NCBI GenBank assembly: GCA_019695095.1 | Contig: JAIBAQ010000049.1 | Coordinates: 1 to 35,300 of the forward strand | DNA length: 35,300 nt | Source: Candidatus Hydrogenedentota bacterium | GTDB taxonomy: Bacteria; Hydrogenedentota; Hydrogenedentia; Hydrogenedentales; SLHB01 | Direction: 5' to 3' | Shown: piece by piece, positions 14,330-17,839 of the stretch | Layout of the letters: every line of letters begins with the position of its first letter | Numbering within the stretch: position 1 is the stretch's first letter | The notes under the pieces: model-generated | Databases searched by the model: none | The model's input: the letters and a program-made list of their open reading frames with translations, nothing else | Told to the model about the DNA's origin: nothing | Program-made: the position numbers and the translations under genes

Positions 14330-15106
14330 ATGCTGCTCGTAATGGACGTCGGCAATTCCCATACGGTCCTGGGTCTCTTCGAAGGCACGGAATTGCGCGC
14401 TAATTGGCGTGTCGTCACCACGACGCACCGCACCAGCGACGAATTGCGCATCTTGTTCAGCATGCTGTTTCAACAAGAGAACATCGATCCGCGCTCCGTG
14501 CGCGGATGCTGCATATCCAGCGTCGTGCCGCAAGTCAACCACTCTCTCGAAAAGGCGGCTAGAGAAGGGTTCAAGACGACGCCACTTTTCGTCGGACCCG
14601 GCATCCGCACCGGCATCGTCATCAAAGTCGACAACCCCAAAGAGGTGGGGGCCGATCGCATTGTCAATGCTGTCGCTGCGGTCGACGAACATGGCGGTCC
14701 ACTAATCATCGTTGATTTCGGCACGGCCACCACCTTCGACGTGGTTTCCGAAGCTTCCGAGTTCCGTGGCGGCGTCATCGTTCCCGGCATTCAGATTTCC
14801 TCCGACGCCCTCTTCGAACGGTGCGCCATGCTTCCACAAGTCGAAATTGCCAGGCCCGCCAATGTGATCGGGCGCGATACGATCTCTTACATCCGATCCG
14901 GTCTCACCTTCGGTTATACCGACATGGTCGATGGACTCATTGGCCGTATCGCTGAAGAAATGGGCTGCAATCCGAAGGTCGTCGCCACGGGCGGTTTTGC
15001 GGGTTTCATCTCGCAAATCTCCAAGCGCATTACACATGTCGATCCCTTGCTTACACTGAAAGGGCTGCGGCTCATCTACACCAAGAATGAGAGGGTACCT
15101 GCGTGA
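14330..15106 (+). CDS. coaX: Type III pantothenate kinase
   Basis: 258 aa, normal length. Motifs in order: MDVGNSHTVLGL (phosphate-binding strand-turn), SSVVPQV, NPKEVGADRIVNAVAA with the catalytic Asp, IIVDFGTATTFDVV, and GGVIVPGIQIS. These match the ASKHA-fold CoaX, which phosphorylates pantothenate as the first step of CoA synthesis and is not feedback-inhibited like CoaA. GGAG lies about eleven bases before the ATG. Its stop codon overlaps the GTG of the following LptC-like gene (GTGA), so both are likely translationally coupled. Confidence 0.96.
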   Translation: MLLVMDVGNSHTVLGLFEGTELRANWRVVTTTHRTSDELRILFSMLFQQENIDPRSVRGCCISSVVPQVNHSLEKAAREGFKTTPLFVGPGIRTGIVIKVDNPKEVGADRIVNAVAAVDEHGGPLIIVDFGTATTFDVVSEASEFRGGVIVPGIQISSDALFERCAMLPQVEIARPANVIGRDTISYIRSGLTFGYTDMVDGLIGRIAEEMGCNPKVVATGGFAGFISQISKRITHVDPLLTLKGLRLIYTKNERVPA

Positions 15107-15729
15107 AGCGAAGTTTAGTCGTAATCGCGGTCATTGCCGCGGCCATTGCAGGCTGCACGAAACCTGCAGCAACGCCGTCCCAACCGGCTCCAGCTCCGAC
15201 CCAGCAACCAGGTACGCAACCCGCAACGCCTGCTCCCGCCCAGCCTGAAACGGTGCCAACCGCCTCGGCGCCGTCGGATCAGGTCACGATGACGGGCAAT
15301 CTCACGTTCAAGCTCTTCGAGACGTCTGTCGAAGGTGAACAACAAAAACCCACTTTCGAAGTAACCTCGCCACAGGGCTCGCTGCTCGAAGACAACGTGT
15401 GGGCGCTTAAGAACGCTTCCGCCGTCGTATTCGGAAAGAACGGCGAGGAAACCCGCTTCGAAGCCGGCAGCGCCCGCTTTGACAACGTGAACAAGACGGC
15501 GGAACTTTCCGAGGGCGTCGTAATCACCATGGGGACACGCCGCATTGAGCTCCAGGATGTGACATGGAACAACGATAAACGTGAGGCCGTCTCGGAAAAC
15601 GAGGCCACCGTCACCGACGGCGATACTCAGTTGAAGTCCAAGGGGATGGAGTTCCATGCCGAGACGCAGCAACTCCTGCTGCGGAACGTGGTCGGCAAGG
15701 TCAGCATGCAGGGAGGCGCCACCCAATGA
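15103..15729 (+). CDS. lptC: LptC-like LPS-export protein, predicted lipoprotein
   Basis: 208 aa. The N-terminus VVIAVIAAAIAGC is a lipoprotein signal (lipobox AIAGC, Cys near residue 18), followed by about 40 residues rich in Pro, Ala, Gln and Thr. The domain from about residue 65 has the LptC pattern of short beta strands, ending DGDTQLKSKGMEFHAETQ then LLLRNVVGKVSM. In E. coli LptC is held by one transmembrane helix and passes LPS from LptBFG to LptA; here a lipid anchor and a flexible linker seem to replace it. GTG start overlaps coaX; the 3' end overlaps lptA (ATGA). Position before lptA and lptB supports the call. Confidence 0.82.
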   Translation: MKRSLVVIAVIAAAIAGCTKPAATPSQPAPAPTQQPGTQPATPAPAQPETVPTASAPSDQVTMTGNLTFKLFETSVEGEQQKPTFEVTSPQGSLLEDNVWALKNASAVVFGKNGEETRFEAGSARFDNVNKTAELSEGVVITMGTRRIELQDVTWNNDKREAVSENEATVTDGDTQLKSKGMEFHAETQQLLLRNVVGKVSMQGGATQ

Positions 15730-17072
15730 GACGAGTCTATGTCGTTCTGATGGCCACCTGCACAGTCGGCGTGTGCGCTTTCGCGCAGGCCGGCAACTAC
15801 GAATCCATCGAGATTCTAAAACCCGCCCCCCTGGTCGAATTCAACGGCGGACAACTCAAACAGATATCGGGCGGCGTTGAAATCGCGCTGCACTCCAAAG
15901 ATGCCGCCGGACAATCCATGCGCCTGGGTTCCCAGGACATGGCGTTCGAATGGCCCAAGGAAGGCGGCACAAGCCCCACGTCCATCCGCATGAAATCGAA
16001 GGTAAGCGTGGACAGTCCTCAAGGCAAGATCACCGCCAACAACGCCGACCTCGACATCAAGGGCAATCGACTCACGTTCTCCGGCGCCGTCCGGGGTTCT
16101 TCCGAGCAGATCGAAAGTTTTGAGGCCGAAAAGATCGTATACAACCTGGATTCGGGCGATTCCGATATGACGAATCTCCGCGCGCGCGGAATCCGGCTGG
16201 GCGATAGCTCCGGTTACTCGCGTATGAATATCGACCGTGCGGCCACCGTGAAGTTTGCCAACGGCCAGGCAAAACACTTGGGCGGCGGCGTCTCCATCGT
16301 CCTCGATTCGACACAAGAAGGCGGGAAGCCTCTCAAACTCAGCGCGTCCGAAGTGGGCATTGCGTGGGGAGGCAACGGCCAACCCTCTGCCATCGAACTG
16401 CGCGGCAATGTGCGCGTCATTAGTCCTCAGGGAGACATCACATCCGAGCGCGCCGATTTCAGTCTCGCGAAGGAAAGCATTGACTTTTCGGGCAACGTCA
16501 AAGGAACATCGGACCAGATTCCGTCATTCAATTCGGACACGTTCTCGTACAACATCAAGACCGGCGACACGACCATGACGAATCTGGTCGCCAAGGGTCT
16601 AGAGTTTCCCGCGGGAGACTCCAGTACGTCTGAACAGGGTTATTCCAAGATGGACGTAGACAAAGCTCCCGAAGTCGCTATGGTGGGTGGAAAGCTCGCT
16701 TCAATTCGCGGCGGAGTCGACATCAAGCTCCGCGGCGAGAAACCCGAACAAGAATCCCTGTGGATGCAGGCGCAAAGCTTCGCCTTCCATTATGTTTCTC
16801 CCGATGCGCCTTCTCCCGATCGCGTCGTCCTGGAGAAAGATGTCAAGGTAAAAGGTCCCGCTGGCAATATCCTGTCCGATAGGGCCGATTTGAATCTGTC
16901 CAAGAATTTGGTGACGTTCTCTGGCAATGTGTCTGGCAACACGTCAGACATAAGTCAGATCAAGGCGCAAGAGTTGGACTACGACCTCAAGACGGGGAAT
17001 ATCTCGATGAGGAGTTTTCGCGCCGACGAACTCAATCCGCATGCCAATGAGAAAGCCGACCGCGAGCAATAA
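15726..17072 (+). CDS. lptA: LptA/OstA-like periplasmic LPS-bridge protein with three tandem OstA domains
   Basis: 448 aa, more than twice the usual LptA. A signal peptide ([19 protein letters not shown]) precedes three repeats of about 140 residues (roughly 25-160, 160-300, 300-440). Each repeat contains GGVxIxL, a (V)xVxSPQGxIxxxxAD strand, then FSGxVxGxSxQI and a Y(N/D)LxTG(D/N)xxM segment: [36 protein letters not shown]. This is the OstA/LptA beta-jellyroll pattern. LptA monomers stack head-to-tail to carry LPS through the periplasm; a built-in trimer would be a pre-assembled bridge. It overlaps lptC by ATGA and lies 20 bp before lptB. The middle repeat is closest to the other two. Confidence 0.85.
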
Positions 17073-17092: not shown

Positions 17093-17839
17093 GTGTCCGA
17101 ACCTATCGCCTCTTTGATGAACGCCATTGGACTGGTCAAGCAGTTCAAGCGCCGGTCCGTCGTCAACAACGTTTCCATCGAACTGAATCCCGGCGAAGTC
17201 GTCGGCCTCCTGGGCCCCAACGGAGCGGGCAAGACAACTACGTTTCGCATGATTGTCGGCATGCTTCGGCCCACGCGCGGCACAATCTGGTTCTGCGGCA
17301 AAGACGTAACCAAGTTCCCCATGTATAAACGCGCTCGCGCTGGAATGGCCTACCTGCCCCAAGAACCCTCGGTCTTTCGAAAACTGACCGTGCGGCAAAA
17401 CATACTGGCCGTGCTCGAACATCAAAAGCTCAAAAGCGCCGAACGAAAGCAACGCGCCGAAGAGCTCATGACCGACCTCAGCATACTTCACCTCGCCGAC
17501 AGCCCCGCCTACACCTTGTCTGGCGGTGAACGGCGTCGCACCGAGATATGCCGCGCGCTGGCAACGCGACCCAAAGCGTTCCTGCTCGACGAACCCTTCG
17601 CAGGCATCGACCCCATCGCCGTGGCCGATCTGCAAGACATCGTATCCGCGCTGAAAAACATCGGCATCGGTGTGCTCATCACCGACCACAACGTCCGCGA
17701 GACCCTCGAAATCACCGACCGCGCCTACATCATCAGCGAAGGCCAAATCTCCGTCGCCGGTACGTCGCAGGAAATCGCCAACGATCCCATTGCGCGTCGT
17801 ACCTACCTCGGCGACCGCTTCCGCATGGACTTCGAATAG
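17093..17839 (+). CDS. lptB: LPS export ABC transporter ATP-binding protein LptB
   Basis: 248 aa. Walker A is [14 protein letters not shown]-loop [17 protein letters not shown] (a typical LptB sequence), signature [14 protein letters not shown], Walker [16 protein letters not shown] and the switch His in [11 protein letters not shown]. The C-terminal extension GDRFRMDF is also LptB-like. As a dimer it powers LptFG in pulling LPS out of the inner membrane. The start is GTG 17093, with GGGGAG seven to eight bases upstream. lptF, lptG and lptD are not in the window. It closes the nadC-to-lptB operon; a 10-bp minisatellite follows. Confidence 0.96.

Follow-up and report, generated by a model that had tools for sequence, protein, structure and literature searches.

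The closest described counterparts of the protein discussed here are the periplasmic bridge components LptA and LptH (Escherichia coli YhbN and Pseudomonas aeruginosa LptH; PF03968, TIGR03002), which combine a signal peptide with one self-stacking OstA β-groove domain, are encoded between lptC and lptB, and act as partners of LptC and LptD. For E. coli, the contact between two LptA units was reported to be weaker than that between LptC and LptA, and with one LptA, the Lpt machine would reach an estimated 16 nm, as compared to a periplasm 21 nm wide (PMC5575297). How many LptA units make up one LPS bridge has been stated as unknown (PMC7237710). In terms of concept, the closest match is provided by the eukaryotic repeating β-groove bridges such as VPS13 and ATG2, in which tandem groove modules are joined in one chain and module number sets bridge length (PMC7613979). 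These bridges differ in being cytoplasmic, longer, dedicated to phospholipid cargo and devoid of an LptB2FG-type ABC motor, and their likeness to the protein described below is one of working principle.

A Hydrogenedentota locus encodes a protein that shares with LptA/LptH the signal peptide, the OstA fold, the gene position and the predicted partnership with LptC and LptD, yet contains three fused OstA domains and scores under the TIGR03002 cut-off. LptC (PF06835, TIGR04409) likewise has the β-groove fold; the repeats score with LptC profiles and, in some relatives, form one covalent chain with LptC, whereas the protein itself carries a cleavable signal peptide and neither a lipobox nor a membrane anchor. 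With the single-domain LptA of other Hydrogenedentota (about 293 aa), it has in common the orthologous lptC-lptA-lptB position and a homologous OstA domain, but it harbors three such domains instead of one and lacks the helical domain (about 115 aa) at their C-terminus. It is thus well supported as a variant of the Lpt bridge and not as a new kind of system. A literature search, within partial coverage, retrieved neither a naturally concatenated LptA nor a natural fusion of LptC with LptA. The claim to novelty is lowered by the multi-OstA proteins of other phyla, for example, Bacteroidota and Deinococcota.

The three-domain gene and its Lpt neighbors

The analyzed window is a stretch of 35,300 nucleotides (contig C49) from an organism represented by metagenome assemblies only, with a 6.77-Mb draft genome in 405 contigs that is 95% complete. 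Following hisS-, nadC-, birA- and coaX-like genes (named by inspection), the forward strand carries an lptC-like lipoprotein gene (15103–15729, 208 aa), the lptA-like gene (15726–17072, 448 aa, ATG start), whose start codon overlaps the lptC stop as ATGA, and lptB for the LPS-export ABC ATPase (17093–17839, 248 aa; NCBIfam LPS_export_lptB, 344 bits, equivalog cut-off 240). The lptA product starts with a predicted signal peptide (residues 1–22, 15726–15791; cleavage after AQA, by inspection), in which residues 1–20 are modeled with a pLDDT of about 40. It is followed by OstA domain 1 (D1; residues 24–159, 15795–16202, profile E 6.9e-45, strands within 25–157), domain 2 (D2; residues 160–302, 16203–16631, E 2.5e-42, strands within 164–293) and domain 3 (D3; residues 303–442, 16632–17051, E 1.1e-43, strands within 306–429), all on the forward strand, and by a short C-terminal helix (residues 440–447).

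A previous reading of the sequence alone had described this 448-residue frame as three tandem copies of about 140 residues, and both the exact coordinates and the repeats are borne out. The copies measure about 136–143 aa, match the profile separately and align locally 29–34 standard deviations above 1000 shuffles (D1–D2, 48 of 123 positions identical, z 34; D1–D3, 43 of 129, z 32; D2–D3, 43 of 132, z 29). The shared motifs FSGxVxGxSxQI and YNLxTGDxxM of that reading are present, albeit in looser form than they had been written. As the copies have diverged to 33–39% pairwise protein identity and the same three-domain array occurs in five other genomes, an assembly artefact is excluded; the three tandem OstA copies are real.

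Profile scores give a less uniform picture of the name. Pfam LptD_N/OstA (PF03968) matches two stretches of the protein (34.7 bits, cut-off 20.4) and Pfam LptC (PF06835) reaches 36 bits (cut-off 21). The LptA equivalog TIGR03002, a model that appears to be tuned to close E. coli-type LptA, stays at 24.4 bits, below its cut-off of 71.7. By contrast, the LptC equivalog TIGR04409 matches three stretches with 50.2 bits (cut-off 38), which is judged to be a cross-hit within one fold family. The protein is secreted like LptA according to its AQA site and the lack of a lipobox or membrane anchor, although an LptA would have a single OstA domain per chain. The N-terminal membrane or lipid anchor typical of LptC is missing here, and the lipobox (AIAGC, IAGC/T cleavage) resides in the upstream gene. 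Together with a Pfam LptC match of 34.6 bits (cut-off 21), this motif substantiates the earlier naming of the neighboring lipoprotein as LptC. TIGR04409 thus passes on the three-domain LptA and, at 37.8 bits, narrowly misses the true LptC next door (15103–17072), so that automatic annotation is likely to swap the two names. Since the TIGR03002 cut-off is missed and that of TIGR04409 passed, the name LptA rests on gene order, on fusions in relatives and on profile matches to solved structures, and the protein is treated as the LptA orthologue in position by fold, gene order and pathway, despite its three domains and its low score with the LptA equivalog model.

Further Lpt genes are scattered over the draft genome. 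Those for LptF and LptG are adjacent on contig C74, and LpxC is encoded as well, as it is in 63 of the 68 genomes overall. An LptD candidate of 1215 aa on contig C55 (L097:4347–7994, minus strand) was recognized by weak PF19838 and OstA_2 matches in one ORF, with all single Pfam scores below cut-off. From the N-terminus on, it comprises a β-propeller-like part, a linker rich in Pro, Ala and Glu, an OstA-like domain and a barrel-like C-terminal part ending in Phe. Its orthologues in genomes G053 and G057 exceed the LptD_N/OstA cut-off, and that of G057 also exceeds the LptD_2 cut-off. The propeller-like part and the linker recur in the LptD candidates L127, L128, L129, L131, L133 and L135; the LptD homologue of G007 (L130, 916 aa) is devoid of the propeller. 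A further OstA_2 match, on contig C347, falls within a SecA-like gene of the same orientation and was discarded as a chance hit.

A separate single-domain lptA in the genome was named in the sequence-only reading as evidence against a built-in trimer. Genome-wide searches with Pfam PF03968 and PF04453 gave no match. Because PF03968 missed even the three-domain protein in this setting, both searches were replaced by a lineage-specific OstA profile built from the three window copies together with single-domain relatives. At E ≤ 10, this profile retrieved from the assembled 95% of the genome the three window copies (E 1e-42 to 1e-45) and no other lptA.

Predicted fold and the LptC partner

The structure prediction proposed along with the built-in trimer, an AlphaFold2 model based on a 34-sequence alignment, yielded a confident all-β fold (mean pLDDT 90.5, pTM 0.85) in which pLDDT drops below 50 in the signal peptide only. 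The model contains 25 strands, i. e. about eight per domain and one extra at the N-edge, in addition to the C-terminal helix as its only helical element. Given the pTM for the whole chain, the relative placement of the domains is confidently predicted. It is best for D1–D2 and slightly less certain at the D2–D3 linker (pLDDT 76–79), where the predicted rod may bend. In a fold search of the PDB, LptD, LptA, LptC and LptH take the lead and unrelated folds appear from rank 23 on, with TM scores of up to 0.55 against single-domain targets (normalized to the target). A profile search of the PDB with the OstA domains returned solved LptA first (best E 4.6e-5), followed by LptD and LptH chains, and no LptC structures. 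Profile and fold matches include 2r1a, 7zax and 4uu4. The hydrophobic alternation of the strands, a weak test of amphipathicity, amounts to 1.91, as compared to a mean of 1.37 and a maximum of 2.13 among shuffles. A groove running continuously through all three domains may be inferred from this model.

As a stand-in for a complex with LptC, the natural fusion of LptC with three OstA domains from G047, a sister genus, was folded (pLDDT 87.8, pTM 0.77). E. coli LptC (4b54, 3my2) superimposes on this fusion with TM scores of 0.75–0.77 and an rmsd of 2.2–2.4, and LptC of the LptBFGC complex 6mit with a TM score of 0.65. The matched portion is taken to be the N-terminal LptC domain of the fusion, where Pfam LptC matches as well.

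OstA architectures across Hydrogenedentota

The locus was taken from more than 50 Hydrogenedentota genomes, and architectures were assigned with an iterated domain profile, which includes the previously suggested count of OstA repeats in homologues. Nearly all loci examined retain the gene order lptC-lptA-lptB, and a lipobox-like motif is present in 40 of 54 LptC homologues or fusions. In most genomes, LptC is encoded separately, and LptA (about 293 aa) consists of a single OstA domain followed at the C-terminus by a helical domain of about 115 aa, referred to as H. From their length, these homologues could have been read as two-domain proteins, which was ruled out by the profile. H is missing from the LptA of G024 and G026, which has one OstA domain. 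In the window species and G052/G053, a separate LptC is combined with three OstA domains and no H, while G047/G048 produce one lipoprotein of LptC fused to three OstA domains, again without H, and G051 has a single chain of LptC, three OstA domains and H. Three-domain arrays thus occur in five genomes besides the window species and are fused to LptC in two genera. A second type of long chain (761–846 aa) is encoded in G057, G060 and G067 and consists of LptC, two elongated OstA domains of about 200–235 aa each with an internal partial duplication, and H. A minimal fusion of LptC and one OstA domain (336 aa; L096:2005–3015, plus strand) in the distant family of G027 looks independent of the other LptC-LptA fusions, and G055 has at least two OstA domains in an ORF that runs off the contig end. 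A scan with a narrow conserved pattern matched four loci, all from Hydrogenedentota.

In a tree of the individual domains, the D1 copies of the window species, G052, G053, G047 and G048 group together (82/91), as do the D3 copies with G051 included (91/93), so that the triplication is older than the divergence of these genera. The tree leaves D2 copies as well as D1 and D2 of G051 without a resolved place. The elongated domains form a clade of their own (100/99), and hence the long OstA tract most likely arose twice. By profile boundaries, the tracts measure 426–440 aa in the three-domain proteins versus 427–447 aa in the elongated pairs. The close match hints at a preferred length, though with two origins, it may also be due to chance. 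In the accompanying LptB tree, row L042 was disregarded as an out-of-frame ORF.

H itself is probably a helical domain, judging from its sequence, and no Pfam or PDB relative was detected. At least one H occurs in 67 of 68 genomes, and most genomes of the phylum encode a second H-bearing protein. In most of the loci examined, the protein that hosts this second copy is MraY, with H inserted between transmembrane segments 4 and 5, in a loop that is presumably periplasmic, as in MraY structures. The window species has such a MraY (494 aa; L124:5562–7046, plus strand, contig C77) despite the absence of H from its three-domain LptA, and MraY with an inserted H of about 115 aa is also found at L125, L126, L132, L137, L139, L141, L146, L149, L150 and L155. 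In G061, LptB (L090:1398–2693, plus strand), which is encoded directly downstream of an H-bearing LptA, has a C-terminal H on the cytoplasmic side. Two minus-strand ORFs (L136:2781–4955 and L138:2519–4510) have H near the N-terminus and an outer-membrane-barrel-like C-terminal part ending in F, and the symporter-like L140, L142, L143, L144, L145 and L147 match about half of H. The sharing of H between the LPS bridge and MraY, the lipid I synthase of peptidoglycan synthesis, points to a partner common to both, and H may link LPS transport with peptidoglycan precursor synthesis.

A probable pre-assembled bridge segment

The best explanation, which is considered likely, is that the gene encodes LptA of the Hydrogenedentota Lpt machine, with three β-groove modules fused head to tail in one secreted chain that would provide a pre-assembled bridge segment. 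Gene order, fusions and fold suggest that the protein binds LPS, LptC and the N-domain of LptD; the cargo, the direction of transport and the order of docking are modeled on the known Lpt pathway. LptB2FG would extract LPS and load it onto the lipid-anchored LptC encoded next door, which would dock at the N-edge of OstA domain 1. LPS could then slide through the three grooves in turn, from domain 1 via domain 2 to domain 3, and pass on to the LptD candidate at its OstA-like N-domain. In such a segment of about 25 β-strands, covalent joins would stand in for the weak LptA-LptA contacts of E. coli. By estimate, the two extra eight-strand domains would add about 7–8 nm at about 0.48 nm per strand, enough for a gap of E. 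coli size.

A more far-reaching proposal is that the covalent OstA tract serves as a molecular ruler, giving a bridge with exactly three LptA-equivalents. A fixed length is plausible as such, and this specific version is put forward tentatively. It draws on the two lineages near 425–447 residues and roughly 25 strands, one with a triplicated domain and the other with a duplicated elongated domain, in each of which LptC is fused to the long tract in some or all members. Equally tentative is the notion that the three-domain protein forms one block of a longer, variable bridge, in which fusion adds stability without fixing the length. In its favor, relatives with one domain presumably have to stack, or else form bridges from fewer modules, dynamic assembly has been proposed for the LptA bridges of E. 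coli (PMC5575297), and the LptA number per bridge is described as unknown (PMC7237710). However, two independent lineages converge on nearly the same tract length, the covalent bond to LptC in G047, G048 and G051 fixes one end, and, according to the model, the short last strand with the subsequent helix and polar tail may cap stacking.

A soluble LPS carrier or chaperone, or another envelope role that makes use of OstA domains, appears improbable. OstA-like stretches do exist in unrelated settings within the phylum, for example, in large ORFs of G053 and G050. The ORF of G053 (contig C142, L157:3767–8830, plus strand, 1687 aa) combines, by eye, an M56/BlaR1-type peptidase, an OstA-like stretch, secretin-like repeats and a penicillin-binding transpeptidase-like part, and the OstA-containing ORF of G050 (L156:2447–6046) encodes 1199 aa. 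The gene in the window is nevertheless the sole lptA found in a genome with lptB, lptC, lptF, lptG, lpxC and an LptD candidate; it sits between lptC and lptB, and its relatives are fused to lipid-anchored LptC. Finally, that the protein is mainly a multi-domain LptC and the upstream lipoprotein something else, as the TIGR04409 scores of the two genes might imply, is very improbable, considering that fused relatives place the homologue of the upstream lipoprotein (phmmer E 6e-37, G047) N-terminal of the three repeats, that Pfam LptC matches residues 75–185 of the G047 fusion, that solved LptC chains fit this fusion far better than the three-repeat protein alone (TM 0.48–0.55), and that the repeat profile matches LptA, LptD and LptH structures and not LptC.

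As a pre-assembled LptA segment, the one-chain bridge, fused to LptC in some relatives, would have a defined minimum stoichiometry and length. It would suit single-molecule, crosslinking and cryo-EM work, for which the E. coli bridge is labile. If the ruler proposal were true, the question of how many LptA units a bridge holds would find a natural answer here. By analogy, these architectures suggest that bacteria may evolve bridge length via module number, as VPS13-type bridges do (PMC7613979).
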